DNA of 64,000 nt from Verrucomicrobiota bacterium (GTDB taxonomy: Bacteria; Verrucomicrobiota; Verrucomicrobiia; Palsa-1439): positions 21,712 to 85,711 of the forward strand of contig PLZV01000009.1 of the NCBI GenBank assembly GCA_003152315.1, in the 5' to 3' direction. Under the pieces are notes generated by a model. That model saw nothing but the letters and a program-made list of their open reading frames with translations, did no database searches and had not been told where the DNA came from. Of this stretch, positions 9,751-48,869 are shown one piece after another. Each line of letters begins with the position of its first letter. Positions within the stretch are counted from its first letter, which is position 1. A program made the position numbers and the translations under genes.

Positions 9751-9800
9751 ATCATACACAAACTATAACAGGCGTCAACACTAATATTACATTACATGAA
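9751..9800 (-). promoter_or_regulatory. Promoter with upstream TTCA-N5-TGTA palindrome
   Basis: On the minus strand: TTCATGTAATGTA (9788-9800), 9 bases, TTGACG (-35, 9773-9778), 16 bases, TATGAT (-10, 9751-9756). It drives the giant gene ending at 6011, whose start is 48 bases below the -10. The palindrome centre is 40.5 bases upstream of the -10 centre, exactly as at 17713-17762 and 37811-37860. The rest of 9801-9988 has no gene. Confidence 0.75.
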
Positions 9801-9988
9801 ATATTCTTTCCAACAGCCGATTATCCGAAGGCCGCACGTTATATGCCACGAATTAGGGGATTCTCTGGGCGTGAACCTGTTTTCATTGAAAAACTCGCCT
9901 TATCAGAAGGCGTAAGTGCATCGAGTGAAGTTATGATTCTATAGGGTCTTTGAGCGGATTCCGCAGCCGACACGACTCCATAAGCCGA

Positions 9989-10759
9989 CTAAAGCTTCTG
10001 CCAATCTGGCTTGTTGTCGTAGACCCAGCGGTAGTAATCGGCTTTACGCAGGCGGGAGGCCGCGGGTTCATCGAGGACAATCTTGGCTACCGGGTGCAGT
10101 TGCAGGATCGAAGCAGGATTCATCGAGGTAATTGGGCCTTCTACGGCTTCAGCAAGGGCGCGGGCCTTGTCCGGGCCAAATGCCATCAGCAACACCTGCC
10201 GCGCTTCCATAATCGTGCCGGTACCCATCGTGATGACATGGTGCGGCACCGCGGTCTCACCCCCAAAGAACCGCGCGTTGTGGGCGCGCGTCTGCTGCGT
10301 CAGCGTCTTGATGCGCGTGCGTGAGGCCAATGAAGAAGTCGGCTCGTTGAACCCGATATGCCCGTCGGTACCAATACCCAGTAACTGCAAGTCGATCCCG
10401 CCCGCTGCGAGGATCTGTTGTTCATAGCGCAGACAGAAACCGGGGATATCCTCCGTTAGCCCATCGGGAATGTGGACATTCGACTCGAGGATATTGACCC
10501 GGTTGAACAGGTTTTCCCACATGAATCGGTGATAGCTGGCCGGGTGATCCGGCGCCAGACCGACGTATTCGTCCAGATTGAACGCGGTGACACGGCTCCA
10601 GTCCAGTTTCATCTGTACCAGTTCATGATACAACAACAACGGTGTGCTACCCGTGGCCAGCCCCAGCACCGCGTCGGGCTTCTCGCGCAACAGCCGCGCG
10701 ACCATCTGGGCGGCGATCGTACTGGCCGCTTCTACGGTGGGTTGGATGATGATCTCCAT
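9989..10759 (-). CDS. nagB: Glucosamine-6-phosphate deaminase
   Basis: A 256-residue NagB: converts glucosamine-6-P to fructose-6-P and ammonia, the exit of amino-sugar catabolism into glycolysis. Seen: LGLATGSTP (phosphate loop, 32-40), FNLDEYVGL with catalytic Asp63, and GIGTDGHIGFNEP with Asp132, His134 and Glu139, which line up with Asp72, Asp141, His143 and Glu148 of the E. coli enzyme. It is slightly shorter than E. coli NagB (266). It is last in an operon after the ROK kinase and PIG-L deacetylase, 2 bases after the latter. Confidence 0.95.
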   Translation of the reverse strand: MEIIIQPTVEAASTIAAQMVARLLREKPDAVLGLATGSTPLLLYHELVQMKLDWSRVTAFNLDEYVGLAPDHPASYHRFMWENLFNRVNILESNVHIPDGLTEDIPGFCLRYEQQILAAGGIDLQLLGIGTDGHIGFNEPTSSLASRTRIKTLTQQTRAHNARFFGGETAVPHHVITMGTGTIMEARQVLLMAFGPDKARALAEAVEGPITSMNPASILQLHPVAKIVLDEPAASRLRKADYYRWVYDNKPDWQKL

Positions 10760-10761
10760 CT

Positions 10762-11616
10762 TCAGCGTCCCAGTCGTTTATCCAGCTTCTGTTTCACATC
10801 GGCCCGAAACCGGTCAATGAACCCGCACACATATTCGACAATGTCCCGCGACTCGTCGGCCACCAACGGTGTCAGATCGACGCCGAACGCCAGTTGCGTG
10901 GACCGGTCCGTCGCGTGCGATTCCAGAAACGTCGCGTTGGCGCGGCGGCGGCCTAGCGTGGCCAGATCATAGCGTTTGCCACCGGCGATCTGCGAATCAA
11001 ACACGCCATTCAAGGCCGCCGCCAGATTCTCATGGCCGCTGACATCCATCAACACCTTGTCGTCATCATCCAACCAGTCGAGGTTGCGCCACACCTCGCA
11101 ACCCCAGACTTTTGCGGGACGCTGCTCGCGGGGCAACTCCCGCAGCGCCTGCAACGCACTGATCGCCACGCCAACATGCGTCTCGTGTTTGTCGGCCGGA
11201 TTGTGTGTGTAAACAATCTGCGGTCGCGTCGCCGCGAAAATCTGCCGCAGATCCCCGTGTAACGCGGACTCGGTGGCGCTCTTCACTGCGGTACTGGGGT
11301 AATCGAGTTGGATCATCATGCCGTAACGGCCCACCACTGCCGCCGCGTTCTGCTCGCGCCGTCGGATAGCCATCATCTGCGCGTCGGTGCAGTTCGCATA
11401 CGGGCCGGTGCGGGAGCTTCCGCCGCCGTTGGTGCAGATCACCCCGCCGAACGATTGCGTGTCGCTGTGGTAGCAGGCCAGTACGCCGTGAAACGCCATG
11501 AACTCCAGGTCGTCCTGATGGGCGCCAATGCCAAGATGAGTGATGCGCTTGAGTGCTTCCGTCACCAGCGTGCCGTCCGGAACAAAGACCTCCGCTGTCG
11601 CATTATGCAATTTCAT
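10762..11616 (-). CDS. PIG-L family N-acetyl (GlcNAc) deacetylase
   Basis: A 284-residue PIG-L/LmbE family deacetylase. The zinc motif AHQDDLE is at residues 32-38 and the second zinc site is THNPADKHETHVG. Family members remove acetyl groups from GlcNAc-containing sugars. Its start overlaps the kinase stop by 4 bases and nagB follows directly, so it probably supplies a deacetylated (phospho)sugar to NagB (inference). That would give a second deacetylation route beside NagA at 32088. Confidence 0.9.
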   Translation of the reverse strand: MKLHNATAEVFVPDGTLVTEALKRITHLGIGAHQDDLEFMAFHGVLACYHSDTQSFGGVICTNGGGSSRTGPYANCTDAQMMAIRRREQNAAAVVGRYGMMIQLDYPSTAVKSATESALHGDLRQIFAATRPQIVYTHNPADKHETHVGVAISALQALRELPREQRPAKVWGCEVWRNLDWLDDDDKVLMDVSGHENLAAALNGVFDSQIAGGKRYDLATLGRRRANATFLESHATDRSTQLAFGVDLTPLVADESRDIVEYVCGFIDRFRADVKQKLDKRLGR

Positions 11617-13007: not shown

Positions 13008-13097
13008 AAACTGTCATGAGACGCCGTGACTGGAGCGGCGTTCTCTCGTCATATCGCCAGTTGCGAAAGACAAATGTCCCTGCCCACAAACACTCCG

Positions 13098-16436: not shown

Positions 16437-16504
16437 TATTCCAATGAGCGCTCTTTGGGGCCAGCCACCTTGATATCATCCACGTATCCGATCCGGTTTG
16501 GAAC

Positions 16505-17712: not shown

Positions 17713-17762
17713 ACTATATTGACGGCATAGAGGTGTGTCAATATATTAGTACATTTAATGAA
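17713..17762 (-). promoter_or_regulatory. Promoter with upstream TTCA-N5-TGTA palindrome
   Basis: Minus strand: TTCATTAAATGTA (17750-17762), 8 bases, TTGACA (17736-17741), 17 bases, TATAGT (17713-17718). It serves the GH18 gene starting at 17656 and probably the large GH18-like gene after it. The spacing compensates (8+17 against 9+16) so that palindrome to -10 is again 40.5 bases centre to centre. Confidence 0.75.
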
Positions 17763-17859
17763 TGATTTACGATGCACCTCGCGGCGAGACTTCTACATTT
17801 GCACACATAGAAGCCTGCGATACCATTGTTTATGTAAATCAGCATTCAACCATAGTAAT

Positions 17860-19083
17860 TTATGTGAATGAATTTTTATGAAAATAGCCCAGCCTTGTTA
17901 CGTATGTTGAGGGAAGCCACTCGGCGATTTTAATCGACTTGCCCGACCGACTCCAATCGACCTTCATTTCGGAAAACAACTTGCCCTCCTGAACCGTCTG
18001 TTCCACTAATTCCGCGAGGCCAGGCTGGCACGCGTTCTGGCGGCTTTCGCCCCATATCTGGCCAATATCGCGAATGCCTCCCGAACTCGCCAGTGCCGCA
18101 TTTGTTGCCAAGACGTAACCACGAGTGTCGTCCAGCCGTGTGGCCGGGCGGGGTTGCGTACCGAGGGCAAACCGCACAAACTGACGCCACGTCTCAAGAA
18201 AGGGATCGGCACAGGATTGAGCCGATTCCAACAGCCCCAGATCATTCCCCGGAACATTGCCGTTCTCAAAAACCCACGCTCGGCCTTTGGATCCCACGAC
18301 TTCAAGCTTGCAGGGTACCGCCTCCTCGGTTGCATGAGTGACGACGTACTGAAAGCTTGCGCCTGATTCCATGTGTCCCCGCATGCCAATGAGGTCGTAA
18401 CTCTCAATCGGCTTGATCCGATACAATTCCGCCTCGACATCCAGCGGCAAGCCGAATTCGTCCATTTTCCCGCCGGCTAGGTACATTATGTTGTGGAGCC
18501 AATGTGACAGCGCATTCGTGGCCGGGCCATCGAATACCGGTTTGCCGTCGTAAATCATCTTTCCAGCCCACGGAGCCCGCGCGTAATACACTGTGGATCG
18601 TGGAGAACAACCACCGACACGGAAGTTCCGAATCTCTCCCAAAGCGCCCTGCGTAATCCAGAGCTTCAACTGCTGCACGGGCTGGGAATTCACGAGCTGA
18701 AAACCCACGGCCACTTTCTTGTGAAGATCGAGCGCCAGCAGGCCATCGAGTTGCTGGATCAGCGGCACGGGTGGTTTTTCCAGGTACACAAATAGATCGC
18801 GGGCAATCGCCGCGGTGGCAATTTCCATATGGAGATGGATGGGGGCGGCAATCGCCAAGGCGTCGAGATCCAGCTCCTTTTCGAGCAGGCTCTTGTAATC
18901 CGAATACCAGCGAACGCCACGGGATTCCAGCGTTCGTCGCGTGCTGGCCAGGGGTGTGTCCGCGAGGTCTGCCACGCACACGAGGCGCGCAAGGCCTTCC
19001 GTTTCCAGTGGTCCCAATGCCTTAAGATGAGACGCGCCGAACCCGCCGACGCCGATCAATCCCACGGTCAAAGGCGGTTTCAC
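17860..19083 (-). CDS. Gfo/Idh/MocA-family oxidoreductase 1
   Basis: About 407 residues. The NAD(P) Rossmann start TVGLIGVGGFGASHLKAL is followed by LEKPPVPLIQQ, the EKP-type motif of this family. Such enzymes oxidise or epimerise sugars and sugar derivatives. I chose GTG 19083, preceded by AAGGAT; the longer frame from a TTG would overlap the symporter gene. It is the last gene of the long operon starting with the prepilin-like gene at 29428, 13 bases after the symporter. The substrate is presumably an oxidised or amino sugar. Confidence 0.82.
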   Translation of the reverse strand: MKPPLTVGLIGVGGFGASHLKALGPLETEGLARLVCVADLADTPLASTRRTLESRGVRWYSDYKSLLEKELDLDALAIAAPIHLHMEIATAAIARDLFVYLEKPPVPLIQQLDGLLALDLHKKVAVGFQLVNSQPVQQLKLWITQGALGEIRNFRVGGCSPRSTVYYARAPWAGKMIYDGKPVFDGPATNALSHWLHNIMYLAGGKMDEFGLPLDVEAELYRIKPIESYDLIGMRGHMESGASFQYVVTHATEEAVPCKLEVVGSKGRAWVFENGNVPGNDLGLLESAQSCADPFLETWRQFVRFALGTQPRPATRLDDTRGYVLATNAALASSGGIRDIGQIWGESRQNACQPGLAELVEQTVQEGKLFSEMKVDWSRSGKSIKIAEWLPSTYVTRLGYFHKNSFT

Positions 19084-19096
19084 TTGATCCTTCAAA

Positions 19097-21187
19097 TCAA
19101 TCAGCAGACCGCGGAGCAATCACTGCTCGGGAGTCAGTCGGAGCGTGTGTGTTGCGCGTGCTCTTGGCAACTTCGTCCAGGTTGTGGTGGTCAACAACCA
19201 TCCCATCATCCAGGGTGTTGCGCTCGCACGTGCGCAGGTCGCGAAACAAGCGGCGCAGGTCCCGCACACCACCCCAAGTAAGCCAGACGGTGGTAACGAC
19301 GCCAACCACCAGCGGCAAGAAGACTGCCGTGAGGAACCAGTACTGTCCCCAGGATTCCAGTTGCCAGGGACGCCACAAATACCAAACACAGCCAACGGCG
19401 AACACCAGAAACCAGAACATGCTCCAGGCAAACACTCCAATGGAGATCAGTTTGTCACCGGTTGTAAACTCCCCGTCGAACCCGAGGATCGTCCCCCAAT
19501 GAAATCCCTTTTGGGCCGGACTCGAGATAGCCACCGGCTGGGCCTCCACCGCGTAACGCCCACGATGCAGCATGCGGTCCATGTCGAAATCGGCTTTGCG
19601 CGTCACCAGAGAAACCACGATGTACAAGATGATCGCCACGCACGAGGCAAAGAACCCCCAGACCTGACCGTTGATGGGAAATTTCTCCGGGTGCTGCACG
19701 AGATAGTTGTGAGCGGCGCCATTCTGAAAGACATCGACCAGAAGCGGCTGCAATGATTTCCAACATTGCTGGAGCACAATCCCGCTGGTGGCCAGCAAGG
19801 ACCCGGTGATCATGCTGACCCACGCGGCAGCGGTTGTGCCTTTCTTCCAGTACAGTCCTCCCAACACCGCGCACCCGGAACCGCCTAAAAAGATCGCTCC
19901 CGTGATCGCAAAAAACATCAGGATGTATTCGGTCTGATTGAAGAGGAGGCCGAACAGGAAGGCGAACACTCCTACACCGGCGATGGACCATCGCAGCAAA
20001 CGGATATGTTGCTCCGGTGTAAATGGTTTCTTGCGGAACGGCAGGATGATGTCCTGGATGAAAATGCCGCCCCACGAGTGCATGTACGACCCATCACAAG
20101 CAAGCATGGCGAAGAACATGATGCAGGCAAATGACCCTTTGAGGCCAACCGGCAGCATATGCGCCAGCGCCACCGGCACGCGCATTTGATTTTGCATCGA
20201 CACTTCGGGAATGCGTTTGAGGGCATCCGCAACCTGGGCCGCGCCCGCAGCGTACTTGGGATGGTTCAGGTACGTGAATGCGCACACCCCGAGCAACGTC
20301 ATCATCACGGTGCGTGCGTACCCCCGCCACGTGCCCAAGATGCCACCCATCCTTGCTTCGTGGGGACTCGCGGCCGCGGATCGAAATCCGTATCCCCCTT
20401 GCCACGACATGTAGTTGTAGACCAAAATGAAGATGCCAATCAGCACGTACCAGATGTTGAAGTCTCTCGCCTGGCCGGTATCGAACGGGTTCAGCATCGA
20501 CTGCCCTTTTGGTGCGGCAGCCAGCGCGGTGTAGATGTTCGACCACGGAATAATCCAGAGCAAACCGGCGGCCACCAGCACACACAGAACATTCGACAAG
20601 ATCCCTTCCAGGCAGTCGCAGACCATGATCGTCAATTGGCCACCGACCAGCGTGAGGTACAAAGCCACGCTAATGAAGATGGCCATCAGCACAGCGAACG
20701 TGGGGATCGACAGTCCCCCAAAAGCAAGGGACTGCGGCAACCCGCAGTAGTTCACAAAGAACCGGGCGCCTACAGCGGGGAAAATGCCGTAGTTCAGCAC
20801 GCCCGAGACAAACGCCAGGATGCCGGCAAACACCCGAAACCTCTTCGAGTACCGGATCTCAAAGAACTGCGCCATCGTCATGACGCGTGTCTCCCGATAG
20901 CGGTACACGACGAATCCAGTCAGGGTCAGCAATAACCCCGCAGGCACACTCAACTGCTGCCACCAACTGAGGACAAATCCGGTTTTGTAGAGATACTCGA
21001 ACATCGCCACCGCACTGACGGCCCCAAACGCCGCTTCCCCGGCCGCGTTGCACACCAGATACCGCCCGGCGCAGCGGCTGGCCGACATGAAGTCTGCAAC
21101 GCTTTTCATGTACTGGCGGGTGCGCGCCGATACAATCATGACGATCACGAAGGGGACGAGCAGGATGGCGTAGTCGATCCAGTGCAT
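19097..21187 (-). CDS. Sodium:solute symporter (SSS family)
   Basis: 696 residues with many membrane segments, starting MHWIDYAILLVPFVIVMIV. The SSS pattern is visible: ADFMSASRCAGRYLVCNAAGEAAFGAVSAVAMFEYLYKTGF near the N-terminus and later a GGYGFRSAAASPHEARMGG cytoplasmic loop. It imports a sugar, probably the mono- or disaccharide released by the operon's hydrolases, with sodium. It is the only transporter in the block. It lies 15 bases after the CBM9-like lipoprotein gene. Confidence 0.9.
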   Translation of the reverse strand: MHWIDYAILLVPFVIVMIVSARTRQYMKSVADFMSASRCAGRYLVCNAAGEAAFGAVSAVAMFEYLYKTGFVLSWWQQLSVPAGLLLTLTGFVVYRYRETRVMTMAQFFEIRYSKRFRVFAGILAFVSGVLNYGIFPAVGARFFVNYCGLPQSLAFGGLSIPTFAVLMAIFISVALYLTLVGGQLTIMVCDCLEGILSNVLCVLVAAGLLWIIPWSNIYTALAAAPKGQSMLNPFDTGQARDFNIWYVLIGIFILVYNYMSWQGGYGFRSAAASPHEARMGGILGTWRGYARTVMMTLLGVCAFTYLNHPKYAAGAAQVADALKRIPEVSMQNQMRVPVALAHMLPVGLKGSFACIMFFAMLACDGSYMHSWGGIFIQDIILPFRKKPFTPEQHIRLLRWSIAGVGVFAFLFGLLFNQTEYILMFFAITGAIFLGGSGCAVLGGLYWKKGTTAAAWVSMITGSLLATSGIVLQQCWKSLQPLLVDVFQNGAAHNYLVQHPEKFPINGQVWGFFASCVAIILYIVVSLVTRKADFDMDRMLHRGRYAVEAQPVAISSPAQKGFHWGTILGFDGEFTTGDKLISIGVFAWSMFWFLVFAVGCVWYLWRPWQLESWGQYWFLTAVFLPLVVGVVTTVWLTWGGVRDLRRLFRDLRTCERNTLDDGMVVDHHNLDEVAKSTRNTHAPTDSRAVIAPRSAD

Positions 21188-21202
21188 TGATTTATCGTGT
21201 CC

Positions 21203-21967
21203 TCAGGGTACTAGCTTCAGTGGGGCATATTGTTCGACGAGATGATACGCAGCTCGCGACAGGACGGGCCACGAGGACAACTCCGGTCCTGTCGCCTGCG
21301 TGCGATAGCGGGTGTAGTTGTACCGCGCCAGCAGGATCGTCCAATTCGCCTTTACATCTGGTTTCTCGCCGAAGCCATCCAGCTTGCTCCAGGGGATGGC
21401 GACCTCCGCCGTCCACCTCTCGTCGCGATCGCGGTCGTCGTTCAGCGTGCCCCGTACCCGGGCCGCGGCTTCGATGAACCGCGGTTTGACGTGCGAGTTG
21501 ACTCCTTGCAGTCCAAACCGACCCCGTCCGTGATGCAAATACGTGGAGACGTACCCGGCCGGTGTCACGTGAAACTCCCAGTACCACGTCTGGTCGGTTG
21601 GCTTGAGAAAAATCTCCGCGACATCCCCGAGATTATGGTGCTCCTGGTCGTCCTCTGTGCCGTTGGCCACAACGTCTGAATCCGTGAAATCAAAAGCGAC
21701 GTACAGATACTGATCATCCCAAAGAAGCCGCGCCGCACCAGCCTCCTCCAGGCTTTGCCCCTGCTGTTGAAGTTCACGCGGAATGTCAAATCGGATCGGT
21801 TTGACTTGCTGCCAGACGGGTTTATCCACGGATCCGTCCAACTGGATCGGCATGGCCGTCCGATGCACCGCCAACGGCACGGAGCCGGAGAGGGAAGTGC
21901 GTTGGTGCGCACAGGACGCGAGCAGGAAGAGAAGGAGGACTCCATGAACTGATTTCGCAGTATTCAT
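21203..21967 (-). CDS. CBM9-like carbohydrate-binding lipoprotein
   Basis: 254 residues from ATG 21967. The N-terminus MNTAKSVHGVLLLFLLASC has a lipobox (LASC, Cys19). The body resembles family 9 carbohydrate-binding domains: IQLDGSVDKPVWQQVKPI, LLWDDQYLYVAFDFTDSDV, DVAEIFLKPT, WTAEVAIPWSKLDG. The domain binds sugars in xylanases and is common as a lone periplasmic protein in PVC bacteria. It sits between the heparinase-like and symporter genes, so a substrate-presentation role is likely. A longer in-frame start at 22018 would spoil the lipoprotein signal. Confidence 0.8.
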   Translation of the reverse strand: MNTAKSVHGVLLLFLLASCAHQRTSLSGSVPLAVHRTAMPIQLDGSVDKPVWQQVKPIRFDIPRELQQQGQSLEEAGAARLLWDDQYLYVAFDFTDSDVVANGTEDDQEHHNLGDVAEIFLKPTDQTWYWEFHVTPAGYVSTYLHHGRGRFGLQGVNSHVKPRFIEAAARVRGTLNDDRDRDERWTAEVAIPWSKLDGFGEKPDVKANWTILLARYNYTRYRTQATGPELSSWPVLSRAAYHLVEQYAPLKLVP

Positions 21968-22014
21968 TATTTGAGTCGACCCATTCCACCCGTCGGGTGC
22001 TCTGCGTTGTTGTC

Positions 22015-23853
22015 TCATACGCCCAATGCCTCGGACATGACCTCGTTCAGCGTATTGGTTTCGATCCTCACCTCGGAAGCCGAATTTGGAATGATCAACC
22101 TGATAACTTCCCCTCGCAGCCCGATCGTCAAAGACACACCGTCGACCTCGGTGGTTTGCTGCAGCCGCAGTGCGGGGAATTCCCGCCCACTCACGGGCAT
22201 TACCAGAAATGCGGCCTCCAGACGAGCGCCTCGCGCAACAAAGTTGGCAACTGGCGCCGGAAGATTTCGGCTCTGCTGATTCACATGACCCTGCCGAACG
22301 TCCATGCGAGCAAACTTCTCCGCGCAGAAGGGCGCGAGCAGCAAATTGCCATCATCAAATCCGGTGAGCACCTGTTCGGGATTTGCAGAGGTTCTCAATG
22401 TCGTCGGGGCGAAGTGAAACAGCCAGCGGTACTCATGCTCGGTGGCGCCGTCCAACCGGTCCACGACAACGACCATCTGCCGCTTCTTCAAGAACAGGAT
22501 CTGACGAATCCAGGAAACCGGTGCAGGCAATACCCGAAATGCTGCGTTCGACATGGTGGCCAGGTCGTACTCGGGCGTGGACATCCATCCGCAGAGGCAA
22601 CTCCCCACGTCTGTGGGACCTGTCGAGAACCTTTGCGCCGCGTCCGCGTCTCCAAGATCGTCTACGAGAACCGTGTTGTGTGCCTCCGACTTCAGATACC
22701 ACGCGACGCGCAGTGGATCGTCGTAATTGCACACCCCACTGTCCACGAGATACGGCCGCCCATCATGCCAAAAATGAAATCCCAGCTTGCCACCATGCCA
22801 ATGATGCGGCCACGCCGCCCCGGCATCCAGGAATACATAAGTCGAGTGCGCTCCCGCCTTATCGCGCATAACCGCCTGTTGGGAATCGCTAAAACACACG
22901 GATCTGCCTGGTTCACGGTCGGCGGGAATTCCCAACACTTTGGCCAGAATCCGCAGTGATGGACCCGCAGGCGTCTCGCTGGAGTCATTGATCGGCGGCA
23001 TCGTGCCGTCGGGCTGTTGGACCTGGTTCATGAAATGATGGAACTGCGTGAGCCGTTCGCGCCAACGGGGTGAAACCGAAATGTCATTGGCGTCGCACAA
23101 CAAATACGCGTCACGAAAATTGGCCGCAATGAACGGGTAATAGCCCGGGCACAGCTCGACCGAGTTGCCGTCCGCGAAGAACGCCTCTTCGAGGTGGTGA
23201 TCCAGTATCTTCAACGCTTTGTCGCGCCAGATGGAAGCATTGGCCAATTCCGGAAAGAGAACCGTCGCGTGCAGCATCGCCAGCGCGCCGTGCGACTGGT
23301 GATTGCCCGCCGAAAGTGGCTGTTCCCCAAAATAAGCGTTCAACATCCGCATGTGAACTGCGATGGAGTGTAACAACTCCTGTTGCTCGGCGGAGCTGAA
23401 CCCATTGCGTCCCAGAAAATAGCACCAAATCAGGTTCTGCGCGCGCCACGCCACCTGCATGTCCTTCCACGTATACCGCCGACTGCGGAAGTACTCCGAC
23501 AAGTCATGCGGAACGGGATTGCCAGCGCACCATCCCCGGAAGAGTTTCAATAGGTCATCCAGATAGGATCGATCGCCGGTAATCGAGTACAACCGCGCAA
23601 AGCTGGGTAGGCCGTACCAGCGGTTCAGCCAAACGCTCTTCTCAAGCTCCGTGGTTTCCAAGCGGTCATATTGGATTGGATCGCCCCAAGGACTGAAAAA
23701 ATCAGGTCGCCGTAAGACCGCGACCATGTCCATGTCCATTTCCGATCCGATCAGTTGTAATTGTACCAGCCGCCCGCCCTGGTCCATCGGATGGAATACC
23801 CAGACGTCGTACTCCTTCAGGAATTCGTCGAATGGGAAAACGCCGTGTTTCAT
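22015..23853 (-). CDS. Heparinase II/III-family polysaccharide lyase-like protein
   Basis: 612 residues from ATG 23853, 4 bases after the GH20-like stop. The N-terminal part is an (alpha/alpha) toroid (SAGNHQSHGALAMLH, with the Asn-His-x3-His pattern). The C-terminal beta-sandwich shows the family signature GFHFWHDGRPYLVDSGV...SEAHNTVLVDD. Family members cleave uronic-acid-containing glycans (heparin, heparan, alginate). This suggests that the block's substrate contains uronic acid as well as amino sugar. No signal peptide is evident from this start. Confidence 0.82.
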   Translation of the reverse strand: MKHGVFPFDEFLKEYDVWVFHPMDQGGRLVQLQLIGSEMDMDMVAVLRRPDFFSPWGDPIQYDRLETTELEKSVWLNRWYGLPSFARLYSITGDRSYLDDLLKLFRGWCAGNPVPHDLSEYFRSRRYTWKDMQVAWRAQNLIWCYFLGRNGFSSAEQQELLHSIAVHMRMLNAYFGEQPLSAGNHQSHGALAMLHATVLFPELANASIWRDKALKILDHHLEEAFFADGNSVELCPGYYPFIAANFRDAYLLCDANDISVSPRWRERLTQFHHFMNQVQQPDGTMPPINDSSETPAGPSLRILAKVLGIPADREPGRSVCFSDSQQAVMRDKAGAHSTYVFLDAGAAWPHHWHGGKLGFHFWHDGRPYLVDSGVCNYDDPLRVAWYLKSEAHNTVLVDDLGDADAAQRFSTGPTDVGSCLCGWMSTPEYDLATMSNAAFRVLPAPVSWIRQILFLKKRQMVVVVDRLDGATEHEYRWLFHFAPTTLRTSANPEQVLTGFDDGNLLLAPFCAEKFARMDVRQGHVNQQSRNLPAPVANFVARGARLEAAFLVMPVSGREFPALRLQQTTEVDGVSLTIGLRGEVIRLIIPNSASEVRIETNTLNEVMSEALGV

Positions 23854-23857
23854 CGTG

Positions 23858-25777
23858 TTACCATCGTGCCCCACTGGCGGTGGCCACCCGCGAATAGGTC
23901 GCCCGCGGCAGATCGCCTTTCGGAGTGTGGAACACTTTCTCCAGTTTGGCCTCAAACTCTGGAATGGAGCCGACATCACCGTCCAGATAAGCCCGCACTC
24001 GTCCCGCCAGGCCTTCCAGACGCGCGCGTTGCGCACCGTAGCGTTGCTCAATCACTTCCCAACCAAATGGCTTATACAATTCCAGCCACACCTTACGGTG
24101 GCATTCCCACAGTTCATCGAGCGCCGATCGCAAGCGTTTCAAATCGCCCCCGATTAGCACCCGTAAACGCTTCCGATTGCCTGTCTTGTACGCAGCGACC
24201 AGGTCACGGCGCAATTCAGACTTCAGCGCCAGGACCTTTGACAACTGCGCTGGAAACAGCAGCCGCTGGTTGGCGGGGAGTTTTCGGGCCGCAACCCGCA
24301 ACGTATCGTGCAGCTTCTGGTAATGTTGGCGTAACGACAGGTGGGCGAGCTGTGGTTCCATCAAACCGAGCAGAGGATCCTGCCACAGCAGCCATTTCCC
24401 GACATTGGTGTAGCTCTTCTCGGGCGTTGCGACGCCGGGCACGGAATCGATCTCGCTGGCCTTGACCCAGTCATCAAAATCGGCATCGCACGACCCGCGG
24501 AAATTGGCTCGCAATTGTTGCTCATCCACAGAATCCGCATACCCATGCTCCGCGAAGAATTGGATACCTGGCAACGCCGAAAAGACATCGCATTCCATTC
24601 CGTCATCGCCCCAGAGCGTGACGAAGGCTTCGCGGACCTCCTGCGCCTTGCAGGCGCGCATGCAGGCGTCTGTCGCAGTAAACGAAAACGGCAAGGCCGC
24701 CCAAAAATGACTCCATGTCCAGACCCCACCGGCCACCATCGGCTCAAAGCCCAGGGCGCGATGGCGCTTGATCCATTCCACGTAAAAGCCAGGCTCCGTG
24801 TGATAGTAGTCCCAATACGCCAATTGCACGTCCTTGGGAATGCTCGCCGCGACGTCTGCGGGAATCTGGCTATTCCTGTCGTAGTACTGATTCGTTTTGG
24901 AGCCAAGGCGGAAATACATGTCGCTCCAGATGATGGGGCGAACGCCATGCTTGTGACAAATTCCCCGTACGCGATCCAAATGACTGTTGAAGATGTCGAA
25001 AGCCCGTTTGTAGCCATGCTTCTTCAGGTACCGCCCGGTTCCCAGCCCGTGCGCTTCATCCATCCCCACGATCAACCGCGATGACCGAAACGGAGCAGCC
25101 GCGGCACGGATCATCTTGTCGATCAGTTCGTACGTCGGCTTCTCTCCGGCGATCAACACCTCGTCCACATCGCGGTACTCGGCGTATGCCGGCCATTGCA
25201 ATATCTGTCCCAAATGTCCCAACGTCTGAATGGCCATGAACATCTCCATGCCCAACGCGTCGGCATACGCATCCAAATCGCGGAGTTCACGCTGGGTGTA
25301 TCGACCGCGCAGATAGCCGAAAAATGGTTCACCGGGCACCTCATACGTATCTTCCGCGTACAGAATGAATGTATTGATGCCCATCAGAGCGCACCGACGG
25401 ATCAACGCTTTCACCGTCTCGGGTCTCAACACCCCGTTGCGAGATACGTCAACCATGACTCCAAGAAGGTCGAACCGGGCCTTCTCCGAAAAGTCACGTT
25501 CCACGGCCCGAGCGTCGCTCTCGCCCAGCAAACGACCCAGCGCGCGAAACGCACCCGTCTTGTTTGCGTACCGGATCATGACTTCTGCACCATTCTTGGT
25601 TACAGACAAACTGCCCGACGGTCCTCGGCGGTTGCCAACAAACCGTAAGCGACGCGCGCCGCTGGTCCTGGTGAATCGCTGCGGGTATTCCGCCTGGATC
25701 TCCTTAAGCCCCGCCCACAGCTCGGTCGGGCAGGCACGTCCATCGATCGAAAAGGACTGGATGTTTCTGTTTTTCAT
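23858..25777 (-). CDS. GH20-like beta-N-acetylhexosaminidase
   Basis: 639 residues from ATG 25777. An N-terminal GH20b-like alpha/beta domain (to about residue 95) precedes a GH20 barrel. The catalytic Asp-Glu pair is Asp240-Glu241 in LIVGMDEAHG; barrel strands such as LGVMVDVSRNG and YAEDTYEVPG support it. In GH20 the Glu protonates the bond while the Asp positions the substrate's acetamido group. A coiled C-terminal region of about 150 residues follows. Its start overlaps the GNAT stop (ATGA). No signal peptide is seen, so it may act on imported oligosaccharides. Confidence 0.8.
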   Translation of the reverse strand: MKNRNIQSFSIDGRACPTELWAGLKEIQAEYPQRFTRTSGARRLRFVGNRRGPSGSLSVTKNGAEVMIRYANKTGAFRALGRLLGESDARAVERDFSEKARFDLLGVMVDVSRNGVLRPETVKALIRRCALMGINTFILYAEDTYEVPGEPFFGYLRGRYTQRELRDLDAYADALGMEMFMAIQTLGHLGQILQWPAYAEYRDVDEVLIAGEKPTYELIDKMIRAAAAPFRSSRLIVGMDEAHGLGTGRYLKKHGYKRAFDIFNSHLDRVRGICHKHGVRPIIWSDMYFRLGSKTNQYYDRNSQIPADVAASIPKDVQLAYWDYYHTEPGFYVEWIKRHRALGFEPMVAGGVWTWSHFWAALPFSFTATDACMRACKAQEVREAFVTLWGDDGMECDVFSALPGIQFFAEHGYADSVDEQQLRANFRGSCDADFDDWVKASEIDSVPGVATPEKSYTNVGKWLLWQDPLLGLMEPQLAHLSLRQHYQKLHDTLRVAARKLPANQRLLFPAQLSKVLALKSELRRDLVAAYKTGNRKRLRVLIGGDLKRLRSALDELWECHRKVWLELYKPFGWEVIEQRYGAQRARLEGLAGRVRAYLDGDVGSIPEFEAKLEKVFHTPKGDLPRATYSRVATASGARW

Positions 25778-26991: not shown

Positions 26992-26997
26992 CCCAGC

Positions 26998-28575: not shown

Positions 28576-28645
28576 TTCGATTCCGTTTCGCAAGCCGTAT
28601 CACGTTCAATTGTCATTCCAGTCCGCTGGTCGAAGAAGTCGATTA

Positions 28646-29452: not shown

Positions 29453-29503
29453 ACATTACCGTCGGACTGCCCTTGCTGTCAAACAATAAGTTCTCTCAAT
29501 GAA
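29453..29503 (-). promoter_or_regulatory. Promoter of the long hydrolase operon
   Basis: Minus strand: TTCATTGAGAGAA (29491-29503, one mismatch to the palindrome), 8 bases, TTGACA (29477-29482), 18 bases, TAATGT (29453-29458). The palindrome centre is 41.5 bases above the -10 centre, one base from the other three members of this class. It would drive the operon from the prepilin-like gene to the Gfo/Idh gene. Confidence 0.6.
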
Positions 29504-29570
29504 TTTTTATTTTTCTCGCCTCGATAGCCGCGGCGTTTATTCAGTGGTATGTGCTTATTGTAAACGGTAT

Positions 29571-29586: not shown

Positions 29587-29701
29587 TTGACACAATATCA
29601 TTCCAAATGTAAACTAACAGCAAATGGGAGGATTGGTTCTTCCCGTGAATGTGCATTTGATTCGGTTTCCGAATCAAAGCCATCGATCTTGCGAGATTGC
29701 C

Positions 29702-37764: not shown

Positions 37765-38207
37765 TGCTGTGCCCTTTCTTCCTTAGAATTCTACTGCCGC
37801 CCTTTCGCGAATCATACACAGCCCATTTGTGCAGTCAACCTAAAAGTTACATTCTATGAACTATTACGGCCTAATAAACGCCAGGGTCGCCCAGCCGTTG
37901 TCGTATTCAGTAAACGCCCATACGGGCAATAATCACTGCTTCCGATGAAGCAGCGCGTGCGCGTGCCGCAACGAAGATCAAAGTGCGCAATCTACACACC
38001 GTAGATGCATCCAATGAAGTGATGTCACGACACGGCTACCATGCTGGAACCCAGCCGTCGCTCCGTACTCCATTCCGCAAGTTCTTGTTGTGGTTGTCAT
38101 TGGCTTAGAAGCTAGAATCGTGCAACCGACGAACCGAAACCAATACAAGCGCAAATAGCATACTCACACGTATGAGCTTGACATTTTGACGCCCCGCTGG
38201 CATCTCT
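37765..38207. other. Intergenic region between giant gene and LacI gene
   Basis: No gene seen in 443 bases. The left end holds the giant-gene promoter (37811-37860). Near the right end a partial inverted repeat CTCA-CACGTA-TGAG (38163-38176) precedes a TTGACA (38178-38183) and could be the LacI protein's own operator. The middle is AT-mixed and featureless. Confidence 0.6.
37811..37860 (-). promoter_or_regulatory. Promoter with upstream TTCA-N5-TGTA palindrome
   Basis: Minus strand: TTCATAGAATGTA (37848-37860), 9 bases, TTGACT (37833-37838), 16 bases, TATGAT (37811-37816). The arrangement is identical base for base in spacing to 9751-9800, upstream of the paralogous giant gene; even GTGTATGAT at the -10 is shared. 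Confidence 0.78.
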
Positions 38208-39266
38208 ATGCCGGCGACCACGATGACCACGCAAAAGGAAATTGCCAGCCAATTGGGTGTTTCGCCCTCACTGGTCTCACGGGTCTTAACTGGAACAGCC
38301 GACCAGATCGGGGTCAGCGGAGAAACCATCCAACGAATCCGTGAGGTCGCTGCGAAGCTCCATTACCGGCCCAGCGCCGCGGCGTTAACGCTACGTGGAG
38401 CACCGACCATGACGCTGGGAGTCATTGTCCGAAACTTCGAGGACCCGTTCTTTGGCCACATGATAGGCGAATTGCAGGCCCTAGCATGGACGAAAGAGTA
38501 TTCGCTGGTGCTCACAGGCTGCCCTTCGGGGAACGGCCAGGCAATTGACCTGGCCTCCCTGCTGAAATACCGCCTTGACGGTGTGATCATACTGGGCAGC
38601 GATTTTGAACCCGAAGGTCTCGACGCCTTCCCGGAAAAAGGAATCCCGGTTGTCCAAATTGGTGCGGGCCCGCCGCGACCGGGGTTCGTTCGGGTGACGA
38701 TGGACCAGGCGCTCGGCTTGCAACAACTCGTCGCGTATCTCACGAAACTGGGACACCGCGATATCGGCTATATCGGGGACGACACTCCTCCCCATCTTCG
38801 ACGCGAAAAGATTGTGCAGACGATCCTCCGGAGCCATGACCTAGCCACCCGTCCCAAGGCCCTGGTGCGCGTGGTGGCGCACGATGTGGAAACGGGATAC
38901 GAATCGATGCAGCGTCTGCTCCGTCAATGCGGGGAACTGCTGCCAACGGCCATCATCGCCGCGGATGATGTCACGGCCCAAGGTGCATTGCGCGCCTTGT
39001 ACGAGCGACGAATTCATGTGCCAACGGATTTGTCGTTGGCCGGGATTGATGATATTCCGTCCGCGAAGATGACTATCCCGTCGCTCACGACGCTACGCCA
39101 ACCAACCGGGGAATTGGTTCGGCGGGCCTTCCAGCTCTTGACCGGCTCGGCGGCCAAATCCAGGACCCAAGCCGTCAGCGACATCGTCGTCGAGCCAGAA
39201 TTTGTCATTCGCGAGTCCTGCGCCGCTCCACGTGCTCCTCAACCCGGTCGTCAACCCCATGACTAA
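38208..39266 (+). CDS. LacI-family transcriptional regulator
   Basis: About 352 residues. The N-terminal HTH TQKEIASQLGVSPSLVSRVLTG and hinge YRPSAAALTLRG are typical LacI, followed by a periplasmic-binding-like effector domain (LGVIVRNFEDPFFGHMIGEL, DGVIILGSDF, AGIDDIPSAKMTIPSLTTLRQP). ATG 38223 (MTTQKEIA) may be the true start, since TTGACA is only 25 bases above 38208. It overlaps the Gfo/Idh gene by 8 bases and so probably regulates that gene and the aminotransferase. Confidence 0.88.
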   Translation: MPATTMTTQKEIASQLGVSPSLVSRVLTGTADQIGVSGETIQRIREVAAKLHYRPSAAALTLRGAPTMTLGVIVRNFEDPFFGHMIGELQALAWTKEYSLVLTGCPSGNGQAIDLASLLKYRLDGVIILGSDFEPEGLDAFPEKGIPVVQIGAGPPRPGFVRVTMDQALGLQQLVAYLTKLGHRDIGYIGDDTPPHLRREKIVQTILRSHDLATRPKALVRVVAHDVETGYESMQRLLRQCGELLPTAIIAADDVTAQGALRALYERRIHVPTDLSLAGIDDIPSAKMTIPSLTTLRQPTGELVRRAFQLLTGSAAKSRTQAVSDIVVEPEFVIRESCAAPRAPQPGRQPHD

Positions 39267-42006: not shown

Positions 42007-42052
42007 TTGATTGCATCAGCCGACGCCGGATGATAAATTCATTTTATGAATT
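42007..42052 (+). promoter_or_regulatory. Promoter with palindrome abutting the -10
   Basis: TTGATT (42007-42012) and TGATAA/GATAAA (42031-42037) are followed directly by TTCATTTTATGAA (42038-42050), itself inside the larger perfect palindrome AATTCAT-TTT-ATGAATT (42036-42052). The annotated start codon ATG 42046 lies inside the palindrome, so the transcript may be nearly leaderless. Confidence 0.6.
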
Positions 42053-43071
42053 ATTATCTTTTCGTGGTTAAATGGTGCAGGCTGGCTTTGGTGATCAGCG
42101 CGATGCTTCTGACGTCTGGTCTCCGAGCCGAGGATTCAAACGTTACTCCCAGCGCCACCAACCAAACCACGAATGCAGCCTCAGCCACGATGCTGCATGG
42201 CAAGCGCGGTACCTGGGTTTGGAGGAAGCAATCATGGCTGGCGCAAGCAGACAGAGATGCTCTGTTCAGCTTTCTCAAGAAGCAGGGGATCTCCGTCATT
42301 CTCGTCCAGATTCACACCGACTATTCGGGCGAGAAACCTGTGCTTGAGAACCAAGAGCAGCTTTCGGCGCTGCTCCGGCAGGCCGCCAGCCAACACGTTA
42401 TCGTTCATGCGCTGGATGGAGACCCAAGCCACATCTATCCGCCCTGGCCCGAGAAGCTGTCCGGACAGATCCGGGCAGTCGCTGCGCTAAACGCCTCCCT
42501 GACGGGAAACGCCCGGTTCACAGGAGTCCATTACGACATCGAACCGTACATCCTGCCTGCATTCAAGAAAGAAGAGACCCGGTTGGATGTCTGCAAGGCC
42601 TATCTGATCGCTCTCCAGACTTTGGCGCAGACCGCGCGGGCACAGGGGCTGGAGTTCAGCGTGGACATCCCCATGTTTTTTGCCACTAGCGAAAAGAAGA
42701 AGTACCTCGATACGGACGAAGAACCGGACACCTTGCTGGGTCACGTGGCGCACATCGTGGATTGGTTCGGCCTTATGGCCTATCGAAACAAGGCGTCCGG
42801 GGCGGATGGCATTTTGGTCCATTCCGAGGCCGACATCAGCGTCATGGAGAAACTGGGCAAGAAGGCCTGGATCGGCGTTGAGACCGGACCCAACCGGGGA
42901 GATGATCCTCCCAAAATCACCTTCCGGAATCGGCCCGTCGCGGAGTTTGACGGAGAGATCAAGGAAGTGGAGTCGCAGATGGCGGGTCGGAAGGGCTACG
43001 GTGGATTGTTGATCCACAGTTACGAACTCTACCGGGAGTATTTAGGCCAGGCCTCTGTGACGAAGCCGTAG
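42046..43071 (+). CDS. Secreted GH18-like barrel protein
   Basis: 341 residues. Signal segment: CRLALVISAMLLTSGLRA. A TIM-barrel with ISVILVQIHTDYSGEK early, GVHYDIEPYIL (Asp164, Glu166; the first Asp of the DGxxxDxE motif is Thr159-Gly160 here), VDWFGLMAYRNKASGADG and WIGVETGPN. It resembles GH18-type barrels but the family is uncertain. It stands alone between the aminotransferase and the second prepilin-like gene. Start codon uncertain, as ATG 42046 overlaps the putative operator; GTG at 42064 or 42067 is an alternative. Confidence 0.65.
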   Translation: MNYYLFVVKWCRLALVISAMLLTSGLRAEDSNVTPSATNQTTNAASATMLHGKRGTWVWRKQSWLAQADRDALFSFLKKQGISVILVQIHTDYSGEKPVLENQEQLSALLRQAASQHVIVHALDGDPSHIYPPWPEKLSGQIRAVAALNASLTGNARFTGVHYDIEPYILPAFKKEETRLDVCKAYLIALQTLAQTARAQGLEFSVDIPMFFATSEKKKYLDTDEEPDTLLGHVAHIVDWFGLMAYRNKASGADGILVHSEADISVMEKLGKKAWIGVETGPNRGDDPPKITFRNRPVAEFDGEIKEVESQMAGRKGYGGLLIHSYELYREYLGQASVTKP

Positions 43072-43084
43072 TTGGCGTCTCACT

Positions 43085-43924: not shown

Positions 43925-43953
43925 TTTATATTTCACTATTTGAAATAAGTCAA
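43925..43953 (-). promoter_or_regulatory. Promoter with palindrome in the spacer
   Basis: Minus strand: TTGACT (43948-43953), a 17-base spacer that contains TTCAAATAGTGAA (43932-43944), then TATAAA (43925-43930). With flanks the palindrome is TTTCA-N5-TGAAA. It drives the prepilin-like gene starting at 43840. A bound protein would block polymerase, so a repressor site is likely. It may also affect the divergent ROK gene. Confidence 0.75.
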
Positions 43954-44125
43954 GCGCCAATTTCAGAAAGTTTGGTTCCGCCTCCAATCCTCCTGCTTCT
44001 GCCTTCCTCCATATCTTGGCGGTGTCCACCGAAGGTCCGGCTCCGGTCGGAATCGCATCATCGCCGCCCGTTCAACGACTCTCTTCCCAACATGCCCTGC
44101 CTGTGACATAGTGCCGACCAACACT

Positions 44126-45256
44126 ATGGCTTCGATACGACGAGTGGAAAGAAACGCCGCAGCGATTCTGCACGCCATGGCGGAAACGGAAGCGGTCAGT
44201 CAGGCGGAATTGATTCCCAAGGTACAGCTCAAGCGGACATCCATTTTCTACGTAATGGAACGGATGAAACGTGGAAAACTCGTCCGTTCGTCCGGAAATG
44301 TGCCGTCGGGAAAAGGTCGCAGCACCATACTCTGGAAGATTTACGAGGGTGCGGGAACGTTTCTGGTGGCCTACTTCGGCCATAAACACAATTACTACCG
44401 GGTATACAGTTTTCAAGGCGGCCTGTTGCAGGCCATCGACCGTCCCTTCAGCCCTACCATCGGCGACGCCATTGCTGAGTTGCAGGAAATCATCCAGGAT
44501 CTCAATGGGACGAACGGAAACAGGCACGCCCCGTTGCGAGGCGTCGCGGTTTCCCTGGCCGGCATTATTGATTCCACAAACGGTGAGGTGATTCTTTCGC
44601 GCTACTGGCGCATGGAGCATTACGCGCTGGCCACTGAACTCAAAAAGCTGTGGGATACATCGCCGCCGTTGATTCTGGTTGAGAACAATGCCCGGTTGTC
44701 AGCCTGGGGGGAGAGGTGCAACGGTTTGGCCCGCGAAAGCCGCGATTTCATCGTCCTTACCATCCACGGCGCAAGCAAGCGCGAATCCACCCGCGCCGAG
44801 ATCGGCTTGGGGAGCGGCATTGTGTTGGACGGCCGACTGTTCGCTGGGAAGAACGGCGGCGCGGGAGAATTGGACCGTTTCTTCACCAAGTGGCTGCTTA
44901 CGCACTACCCGGCCGGAAGCGTTCCGTCATCGCTAACGGAGATGGCCGAGGAGCAACTGCGCGATTTTGCCTCCGACCTTGGCAATAATTTTTCGCATAT
45001 CATCAATTACCTTGCCCCCGAGAAGCTCTTGGTGAACTTCAACGAGGAACCTCCGTCTCCTTTATTCGTCAAGTGGTTGCGCGAAGCGGTACACGCAAAT
45101 CTGGAACCGCCCGGCGGACAGGATTTTCCCGTAGAAATGTCCCCTCGCGGAGTCGAGTCGTTGCTCGACGGCGGTATCCATCGACTGCGGCAGTTGTACT
45201 TTGCGCCGAGCAACCATCTTCTCCAACAGGTCCAACAAACCTTGAAGCGCCGTTAA
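44126..45256 (+). CDS. ROK-family transcriptional regulator 2
   Basis: 376 residues from ATG 44126 (GTG 44111 also in frame). An N-terminal winged helix (AILHAMAETEAVSQAELIPKVQLKRTSIFYVMERMKRGKLV) joins a ROK domain (LILVENNARLSAWGERCNG, GLGSGIVLDGRLFAGKNGGAGELDRF). It is divergent from the prepilin-like gene whose spacer carries the clearest TTCA-N5-TGAA site, 180 bases away, so it is the best local candidate for binding that palindrome (inference). Confidence 0.8.
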   Translation: MASIRRVERNAAAILHAMAETEAVSQAELIPKVQLKRTSIFYVMERMKRGKLVRSSGNVPSGKGRSTILWKIYEGAGTFLVAYFGHKHNYYRVYSFQGGLLQAIDRPFSPTIGDAIAELQEIIQDLNGTNGNRHAPLRGVAVSLAGIIDSTNGEVILSRYWRMEHYALATELKKLWDTSPPLILVENNARLSAWGERCNGLARESRDFIVLTIHGASKRESTRAEIGLGSGIVLDGRLFAGKNGGAGELDRFFTKWLLTHYPAGSVPSSLTEMAEEQLRDFASDLGNNFSHIINYLAPEKLLVNFNEEPPSPLFVKWLREAVHANLEPPGGQDFPVEMSPRGVESLLDGGIHRLRQLYFAPSNHLLQQVQQTLKRR

Positions 45257-45299
45257 GACTCCCGCGCCCCTCCCCGGCCGGAAGAGCCGCAGCGTAAAC

Positions 45300-47282: not shown

Positions 47283-47344
47283 CGGTCTCCTTCGGCTTCC
47301 TGGCCGAGTCAGGCCTCAACCATGGGAGAACCGCTCCCACTTAC

Positions 47345-47385
47345 TTCAATAAATGAATTTATAGCAGAAATGCGCAAAATGCAAC
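47345..47385 (-). promoter_or_regulatory. Promoter with palindrome abutting the -10
   Basis: Minus strand: GTTGCA (47380-47385), 16 bases, TATAAA (47358-47363), directly followed by TTCATTTATTGAA (47345-47357). The palindrome would cover the transcription start of the GH18-like gene at 47282. Confidence 0.7.
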
Positions 47386-47444
47386 GTGAATAGCCCTCGC
47401 GGACACAGAACCCCTGTATTCCCGAAAACCGGGGAAACTCGAAC

Positions 47445-48158
47445 TTAGCTCCGACGACGGCGAATCACACCGAGGCCGAGGCAGATGCCAGAGACCATCA
47501 GGGCCAGTGTGGACGGCTCCGGAACCGACACCGCCTGGAAGTTGTCCACGTAGATATGCTGCGATCCACCCGAGGCGACATTCTGGAAGCGAATACGCAA
47601 GTCGATCACCTGCGAGAGGTCGAACGCGCCCGCGGTGCCCTGATTTGCCATCTCGGCAGAGTTAAGATCCAGCGTGAACGTCTGGAAGGTCGTGTTTGTC
47701 AGCACCTGCGCAAGGGTCGTCAAACTCTGATAGATCGGCCCGTTGGCTTGTTCTTCAGCAACCTCCACAATCGTGTTGGAAAGAAGCGCTGTGCTGACCC
47801 TCAGATCGACGCTGAGGGCCGTTACAGAAGTCAAGTTGCTTGTGGCGGGGAAATGGAATTCCAAGCTGGCATTGTTCCCGCCGCTGTAATTTAGCGCATA
47901 GTCCATTCCGACAGAGGCGCCTACGCCGGCATTGGTCAAAGCGATGGGATTGGCTGCGGTGGCCCCGCCAAATCGCCCCCAAGGGGATCCGGTCTGCGTG
48001 GCGGCTGTGGCTGTAGCCAGGAGCTGATTGTTGGTGTACGACTCAAAGTTGTCGTACATTTGAGCGTACGAAGCGACACTGAGACGCAAGAGGACGGCTG
48101 CCACGGCCATCACTCGCATACCAGATTTGATTGAGGTTTCCATGCGCACGATCTTCAC
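47445..48158 (-). CDS. PEP-CTERM sorting-domain protein with DNFESY module
   Basis: 237 residues. Signal segment near MAVAAVLLRLSVASYA, then one DNFESYTNNQ module (SPWGRFGGAT, ALNYSGGNNASLEFHFP, IDLRIRFQNV, IYVDNFQAV). The tail is a PEP-CTERM anchor: VPEPSTLALMVSGICLGLG then RRRR. It would be cut by an exosortase and displayed outside the cell. It is essentially the module alone with an anchor. I used GTG 48158 because AAGGATATAGG precedes it; ATG 48143 is the alternative. Confidence 0.88.
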   Translation of the reverse strand: MKIVRMETSIKSGMRVMAVAAVLLRLSVASYAQMYDNFESYTNNQLLATATAATQTGSPWGRFGGATAANPIALTNAGVGASVGMDYALNYSGGNNASLEFHFPATSNLTSVTALSVDLRVSTALLSNTIVEVAEEQANGPIYQSLTTLAQVLTNTTFQTFTLDLNSAEMANQGTAGAFDLSQVIDLRIRFQNVASGGSQHIYVDNFQAVSVPEPSTLALMVSGICLGLGVIRRRRS

Positions 48159-48354
48159 CCTATATCCTTTCCGATTACTCGACGCTTTTTTGACTGCTCT
48201 TTAGGTGCGCCCAAGCCTTCTCAAAGCTGTCACCCACAGAGGGCAAGTCCAAAGGGTGAGTTTGCAAAACAGTGGCTTCCGCTTTCAGTTCTCCACGCAC
48301 TCGCTCGCCCTACTCGCCTGTGGAAATCAGGTGCTGAATCAGCACGCGATTTCT

Positions 48355-48395
48355 TTCACAAACTGAATTATTATGGAAACGGCACTTGAAGTCAA
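48355..48395 (-). promoter_or_regulatory. Promoter with palindrome abutting the -10
   Basis: Minus strand: TTGACT (48390-48395), 16 bases, TAATAA (48368-48373), directly followed by TTCAGTTTGTGAA (48355-48367). It reads toward the PEP-CTERM gene 197 bases away. Same register as 47345-47385 and 42007-42052. Confidence 0.7.
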
Positions 48396-48782
48396 CAACA
48401 AACTGCAGCGTCTTCGAGCTTGGCCTTTCTTCTGGCGCCAAAGGTCCCTTGTCGAGATCCATCGGCCCGTTGCTCGGCGCAGTCGCCGGCGCTGGCATGT
48501 TGATGGGGCGCAATGAGTTTGGCATGTACTCTGGGTCTCGCTGGCCGAGGAACGAGCCAAGCGCGGCGAGGCCATGGACTGAACAGGGTGAAATAATTCA
48601 TAGTGAAATCTTAGGGCAGACGCGAAGCTTTCACACCTGCAGGTCCGGTGGCGCCACGGGTTATGGCGCAATGGCTACGACGCACAACGACAACGTTATC
48701 CTTATACCTTCGCATTTTCACTGATTCCGTGTTCGGGACTCAGGGACAATCTTCCTCTTTGCGGACGGAGAAAACGCCTGGC

Positions 48783-48869
48783 TTCATTGGATGAACTATG
48801 GCAAACATATTGAATGAACCACGGAACGCGAATTTAGTAATTGACAAATTCAAAAAATGAAATTATAAG
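48783..48869 (+). promoter_or_regulatory. Promoter with two palindromes
   Basis: TTGACA (48841-48846), a 17-base spacer containing TTCAAAAAATGAA (48849-48861), then TATAAG (48864-48869). A second site, TTCATTGGATGAA (48783-48795), lies 66 bases upstream. It reads toward the giant gene at 49051. Two spaced sites could allow looping by a tetrameric regulator (inference). Confidence 0.75.

Follow-up and report, generated by a model that had tools for sequence, protein, structure and literature searches.

A putative ROK-family regulator and a local 23-bp operator in a Verrucomicrobiota aminosugar-polymer locus

The stretch of DNA studied here, the window, comprises 64,000 nucleotides (positions 21712-85711 of contig C30, PLZV01000009.1) from the genome of a Verrucomicrobiota bacterium (4.89 Mb, 62 contigs). 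In it, a palindrome with the core TTCA-N5-TGWA recurs at promoters, and a ROK-family regulator, the proposed binding protein, is encoded at 29624..30880 on the + strand (genes are named here by their coordinates). The Pfam families found in the locus are GH20 (two genes, one of them GH20C), GH18, an SSF transporter, a NagB-like protein, PIG-L proteins, heparinase II/III-like and CBM9-like proteins, two DUF1559 prepilins, a PEP-CTERM protein and giant proteins with PKD domains, and a NagA-like amidohydrolase scores just below the Pfam cut-off. A presumed operon on the - strand (17860..29428) holds the genes for a prepilin, GH20, a GNAT-like protein, GH20C, the heparinase-like and CBM9-like proteins, the SSF transporter and a GFO/IDH/MocA oxidoreductase. 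The regulators of the locus are two ROK proteins, whose N-termini are winged helices by alignment, and one LacI protein. From its gene content, the locus reads as one for aminosugar-polymer use, with chitin as the likely polymer.

In the window, TTCA-N5-TGWA gave 19 strand-matches (12 places), whereas 100 shuffles gave 2.74 on average and never more than 9. The ten palindromes listed in the original prediction, which was made from the letters of the window, are all present, nine of them as exact matches and that at 29491 with one extra mismatch. According to our own simple gene caller, all ten are intergenic, and the exact matches that had not been listed (5943, 18689 and 43802) are inside called genes. 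Aligning the ten sites gave the 23-bp palindrome AWTAnTTCATTnAATGAAnTAWT, in which positions +/-8 to +/-11 are mostly A/T. Leave-one-out matrix scores were 16.8-27.0 at nine sites, with a weak score of 10.9 at 48783, and the highest full-matrix score on other contigs was 15.6 (about 215 kb of fetched stretches). The strict form TTCA-N5-TGAA occurs 61 times in the genome versus 29 times for the reversed pattern; the window, for which about 0.8 would be expected from its length, holds seven of the 61, namely the coding match at 18689 and six of the listed sites. Among the 50 of these 61 that were listed, 42 lie outside C30, 28 of them inside called genes, and their matrix scores do not exceed 15.6. 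With up to 3 mismatches, the 23-mer is found at nine places in the genome, namely one on C11 (in a gene), one on C41 and seven listed window sites, 43932, 48355 and 48783 being more than 3 mismatches away from the 23-bp form; the regulon is thus local, and the expectation of a genome-wide one was not borne out. Taken together, these results confirm the palindrome, which greatly exceeds the chance expectation, but as a local operator rather than a genome-wide code. Just past the window, a further palindrome (L070:3496, or G000:C30:89207; G and L numbers are our handles for genomes and loci) lies beside TGTTATA and 20 bp from a called gene start; it has a GC-rich core and scores <7 bits on the matrix. 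In addition, weak similar half-motifs (GCATCnAnTGAAGT) are found at 9917 and 38006, upstream of the paralogous promoters at 9788 and 37848.

Each site had been said to have a sigma70-like promoter beside it, and at seven of the ten TTGAC stands at the predicted registers; the -35 boxes are weaker at 42038 (TTGATT) and 47345 (TTGCAT), both read by eye. Four operators form an upstream class, with TTGAC at +15/+16 from the site centre (9788, 17750, 29491 and 37848), so that the 23-mers end 3-4 bp before TTGAC. The operator at 9783..9805 (operators are given without strand) faces a - strand promoter at 9751-9778 (TTGACG, 16 bp, TATGAT) of the giant 6011-9664; that at 17745..17767 faces the - strand promoter 17713-17741 of 16505-17554 and probably of the genes behind it too; that at 29486..29508, which is also upstream of the ROK gene 29624, faces the - strand promoter 29453-29482 of the prepilin/GH20/GH20C/SSF operon (28646-29428 downwards); and that at 37843..37865 faces the - strand promoter 37811-37838 of the giant 35032-37674. 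Two operators are in the spacer, with TTGAC at -14/-15 (43932 and 48849). The one at 43927..43949 belongs to a - strand promoter at 43925-43953 (TTGACT, 17 bp, TATAAA) serving the prepilin 43085-43840, with the ROK gene 44111 divergent on its other side, and the one at 48844..48866 to a + strand promoter at 48841-48869 (TTGACA, 17 bp, TATAAG) serving 49051-51819; a weak second operator (48778..48800) lies 66 bp upstream of 48849. Just after the -10 are the operators at 47340..47362, which serves 45300-47222 (-), at 48350..48372 (TTGAC at -34; - strand promoter 48368-48395 of the PEP-CTERM protein 47445-48158), and at 42033..42055, which has the top score (28.6) and follows a weak -10. Since the first ATG of the gene 42046-43071 (+) is inside this last operator, the gene probably starts later. 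Contrary to the original proposal, no site was found at the own promoter of a Pfam GH18 gene: the GH18 gene (30973) follows the ROK gene, and it is the prepilin/GH20/GH20C operon that is served by the 29491 promoter.

Some further features of the served proteins were observed. The secreted giants (6011-9664, 13098-17554, 35032-37674 and 45300-51819) are a mosaic of shared domains and paralogues, and domains are common to the giants, the PEP-CTERM protein and 13098/16505/45300; 35032 carries T5SS/PEP-CTERM repeats. Giant-protein domains were found in 35 of 384 genomes of the class without reaching a motif-bearing locus, and a contig scan with a giant protein as query gave no match. The domain common to 45300, 47445 and 49051 recurs in small PEP-CTERM-like proteins of the relatives described below. 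The 42046-43071 protein has a conserved counterpart in the loci of the relatives and, in the weak range, a relative in a solved 'putative GH97' of Cellulomonas fimi (E 7e-13).

ROK 29624 scores 55.4 bits against PF00480 (cut-off 22.9; E 9.1e-15) and 29.4 bits against the MarR_2 winged helix (cut-off 27; E 8.8e-07), and its N-terminal winged helix-turn-helix aligns with those of Lmo0178, Mlc and XylR. The more likely translation start is 29783, which is supported by the gene caller and the alignment. Between the promoter and this start, at 29655-29679, is a near-perfect inverted repeat, ATTTGATTCGGTTTCCGAATCAAAG, which could be a leader hairpin or another operator. The protein shares 30-35% identity with the five clade proteins compared, and its recognition helix, xxxSTxSxI, is common to the motif-bearing homologues and to the homologue in G019. 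The zinc motif CxCGxxGC is typical of the ROK family. It is absent from 29624 and its seven motif-bearing homologues and present in three other ROK proteins examined; because several further ROK proteins examined also lack it, it was not taken as an exclusive criterion. On the DNA side, the 37 sites have odd symmetry and a centre of 0.00 bits, and the T frequency is 1.00 at -6 and 0.86 at -5 (both strands). The operator is an inverted repeat with a T-rich 5' part and an A-rich 3' part, as described for ROK operators (PMC2580772, PMC4856308).

The motif travels with this regulator. In seven other Verrucomicrobiota genomes (G168, G212, G440 and G384-G387), the closest homologue of 29624 is flanked by 3-6 strong intergenic copies (threshold about 15 bits; L216:5037, with 13.6 bits and overlapping 5033, was dropped). 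Since the matrix was built from the ten window sites only, the relatives' sites are prospective confirmations. Protein search led to six of the seven loci, and G212 was reached from the motif, as a cluster that surrounds a ROK gene with GH20, GH20C, SSF and DUF1559 neighbours. G168, found via similarity to 44111, has three sites, with GH20, GH20C, prepilin and PEP-CTERM-like genes around them; profile search led to an Opitutia bacterium, G440 (six sites of 15.0-22.5 bits), and to G384-G387, with three or four sites each, and four more sites lie beyond the first stretches. GH20 and a DUF1559 prepilin recur at all seven loci, GH20C at six (it is not in the fetched part of G440) and SSF at three. 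A ROK contig scan gave 60 loci, in which the three strong Verrucomicrobiota matches are G019, G168 and G440; the remaining 57, including a weak Akkermansiaceae match, exceeded 16 bits only at L204 (33% GC, 17.5) and L206 (16.9). Places above 16 bits number 26 in the seven ortholog loci versus 10 in 112 control loci, and nine of these ten are in loci fetched for a motif match, the tenth being L024 (16.2). With up to 2 mismatches, 30 of 36 places in the eight genomes are on the ROK contig, and in nine genomes that lack such a locus the counts are 0, 0, 0, 0, 0, 1, 1, 2 and 6, the genome with six also having three reversed-control hits. Profile searches returned 14 proteins at E <= 1e-30, one of which is 44111 of the window; the sites co-occur with the ROK gene at 8 of the 13 other loci. 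A single regulator, possibly of the ROK family, had been proposed from the window, and these results agree with it: ROK 29624 very probably binds the motif, and there is good reason to regard the palindrome as the operator of this ROK protein, encoded inside the locus that it would control.

By the position of TTGAC, the registers of the window are 30, 19.5 and 49.5 bp apart, and seven sites fall into them versus 0.29 expected, a number that none of 2000 shuffles reached. The 13 sites of G168, G212 and G440 include six in the same fixed registers (0.20 expected; 0 of 2000 shuffles reached 6). At the 14 sites of G384-G387, three are in these registers, and two at -35, three at -29 and one at -38 are nearby. 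In the other genomes together, 16 of 31 sites have TTGAC at -36..-29, a range drawn after seeing the data, and none of the seven genomes is without such a site. Of about 30 distinct letter rearrangements, TTGAC itself occurs 14 times in the registers and the next-best 5 times. Every one of the seven relatives again has operators that cover or directly follow the -10, with offsets spread across 8 positions. The predicted preference for promoter positions was upheld in the window and, with preset registers, in three genomes, and is less sharp in four more; the favoured places are the -10 and the bases directly behind it, the spacer, and a position 3-4 bp before the -35. Small PEP-CTERM-like genes have the operator over or against the -10 in the window (48355) and at one promoter in each of the seven genomes (L110:11214, L151:11159, L135:13595, L213:10007, L214:7283, L215:4812 and L232:7133); the relatives' genes were assigned by tblastn, and among those scanned only the window protein passed the Pfam PEP-CTERM cut-off. 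Between the ROK gene and its neighbours, a TTGACA-N3-GTCGA element stands beside the operator at four homologous places (L110:9422, L214:8995, L215:10788 and L216:8872), with TTGAC at -29 and no normal spacer to an AT-rich -10, and is possibly the site of a second regulator.

Other explanations of the motif and its registers were weighed. Paralogous surface-protein genes could have been copied with their promoters, making repetition and registers a matter of inheritance; the giants do share domains, and the 9788/37848 promoters (alignment z 7.0) are copies, as perhaps are 47345/48355 (z 3.0), so that these sites, which serve paralogues, are not all independent. All remaining promoter pairs are at z <2, however, genes of unrelated kinds are served as well, and ROK genes in other genomes again have the motif around them, by which this account is largely refuted and becomes highly improbable. 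The original prediction also held that the registers differ by whole helical turns, with the protein on one face of the DNA throughout. The seven window offsets do fit a period of 10.0 bp (phase R 0.95; 0.77 at 10.5 bp and 0.46 at 11.0 bp), and the upstream-class offsets are tight (15-16, six sites). In contrast, R is only 0.33, 0.17 and 0.17 at these periods over 25 offsets of all genomes, and 0.14-0.25 for the 16 promoter-overlapping offsets of other genomes, and helical phasing was rejected as a general rule; the test used offsets taken as promoter-related and omitted -37, -49, 52 and 90 of the window, -38 and -18 of the G384-G387 set and other far ones. Because the TTGAC offsets spread (-36..-29) and R is low, the operator lies over or against the -10 but not in one helical phase, and helical phase as the source of the registers seems quite improbable. 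It is also very improbable that one of the other two regulators binds the motif, even though both are encoded in the locus and site 43932 adjoins 44111. The second ROK protein (44111..45256, +) differs in its recognition helix and is only 18-23% identical to those clade proteins with which it was compared; it is probably a target rather than the binding protein. The LacI-family regulator (38208..39266, +) was considered and is held unlikely as the binder, since 1251 of 1303 LacI operators are described as even palindromes, mostly with a central CG (PMC4052901), and the motif is odd with an undefined centre.

A mode of action of ROK 29624 on its targets can be proposed. A ROK dimer would bind the 23-bp palindrome, and where this covers or closely follows the -10 or occupies the spacer, RNA polymerase would be blocked until an aminosugar inducer releases the protein; we infer the binding, the inducer and the sign of regulation. 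The promoter-overlapping targets would be the PEP-CTERM and other surface proteins, a prepilin and, in relatives, the SSF transporter, and repression at these sites is probable. At operators ending 3-4 bp upstream of the -35, the protein could be an activator in the manner of CysR, or could mask the edge of the -35 and so repress. CysR, a ROK protein of Corynebacterium glutamicum, is described as activating from repeats 3 bp upstream of the -35 and repressing from repeats over the promoter (PMC2580772), and the window has sites in both positions; activation at the upstream sites is possible, at slightly less than an even chance. A stronger version, in which the positions are conserved gene by gene across families, with PEP-CTERM-like genes repressed over the -10 and hydrolase and giant operons activated from upstream of the -35, is doubtful; if true, one aminosugar signal would switch surface display and polymer breakdown in opposite directions.

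The alternative that ROK 29624 is purely a repressor, with the upstream sites hindering polymerase at the -35 edge and no dual mode, is as probable as its opposite. It is favoured by NagR of Bifidobacterium, a ROK repressor for which 10 of 11 operators are reported to overlap the -10 or -35 (PMC9599254), and by an inducer-released repressor being better suited to a catabolic locus; the positions of the CysR repeats and of the four upstream window operators speak against it. Several observations weigh against the main reading, that of a local ROK operator bound by 29624. If the inducer releases the protein, activating a hydrolase operon from upstream makes little physiological sense. Other genomes have TTGAC in the upstream class (+15/+16) at no more than two sites, and the spacer class is confined to the window. 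At the last four sites of the relatives, with registers preset, none had TTGAC on the named offsets, neighbouring offsets being -29, -29 and -36, and one had an upstream-type TTGATT. Five of the 13 wider-clade ROK loci are without sites (G019, the second ROK of G212, two in G412, and G462), and G019 has the same recognition helix, yet zero sites genome-wide. A motif-only search of the 384 genomes (23-mer, up to 1 mismatch) hit 10 genomes compared to 11 for the reversed control, so that single hits mean nothing, and only G212, with four sites in 7 kb, and G168, with two in 3 kb, stand out as clusters. In seven other motif-hit genomes (G341, G330, G293, G381, G148, G102 and G355), no profile-matching ROK gene was found within the fetched 12-19 kb; since the control hit 11 genomes, we take these matches for chance or other regulators.

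The anatomy of the proposed ROK 29624 system fits ROK regulators of the CysR, NagC and NagR kind. As with CysR and SsuR, the operator is an inverted repeat, the CysR half-site being given as TGAAtnnAAt versus TGAAnTAWT here (PMC2580772). According to the same source, 6-8 bp (CysR) or 3 bp (SsuR) separate 10-bp repeats, whereas five bases lie between TTCA and TGAA here; CysR and SsuR also serve sulphur metabolism and not sugars, and activation is established in CysR but only proposed at the window sites. NagC of Escherichia coli, which as a single ROK protein represses nag and activates glmUS, likewise has a 23-bp box with T at -6/-5 and controls aminosugar genes (PMC2806358). Its box is described as having G or C at +/-11, unlike the A/T here (G/C at -11/+11 in 12% of the 37 sites), and the 29624 clade differs from NagC in being without the CxCGxxGC motif. 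NagR (PMC9599254), with a palindrome over the -10/-35, and ChiR of Thermotoga (PMC3750489), which responds to chitobiose, are also ROK regulators of GlcNAc or chitobiose loci; they belong to other phyla, no prepilin or PEP-CTERM targets are named in the accessible parts of these papers, and the likeness is by description and not by operator letters. The best solved match of a six-protein profile is the Listeria ROK protein Lmo0178 (5f7p, 5f7q, 5f7r; E 1.2e-38), with a winged helix and a ROK domain; it is distant in sequence from the 29624 clade, and the likeness is one of protein domains, not of operator.

The type of operator and regulator is thus known, and what appears to be new is a local ROK regulon in Verrucomicrobiota with an unusual target set. 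Among the matches listed in the open-access literature, which leaves most subscription papers outside, there was neither a ROK regulon in Verrucomicrobiota nor ROK control of PEP-CTERM genes; one case of PEP-CTERM regulation among them is described as RpoN-dependent (PMC9850573). The analysis gives an operator, a regulator and a regulon, all testable, for aminosugar-polymer use in Verrucomicrobiota. Through shared control, glycan catabolism would be linked with the DUF1559 prepilins, the PEP-CTERM-like proteins and the giant surface proteins, by which a role of the surface proteins in handling the polymer is supported, not proven.

In G212, the second clade ROK gene is preceded by a NagB-like gene, and upstream of the latter is TTTATTTTTTCATTGAAAAAATAAA, a perfect palindrome of 25 bp (L109:7729-7753). 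This palindrome has the half-site TTCA/TGAA of the operator, with one base between the halves versus five. Half-site spacing is reported to vary between the paralogues CysR and SsuR (PMC2580772), and TTTATTTTTTCATTGAAAAAATAAA may reflect operator spacing that is diverging between ROK paralogues.

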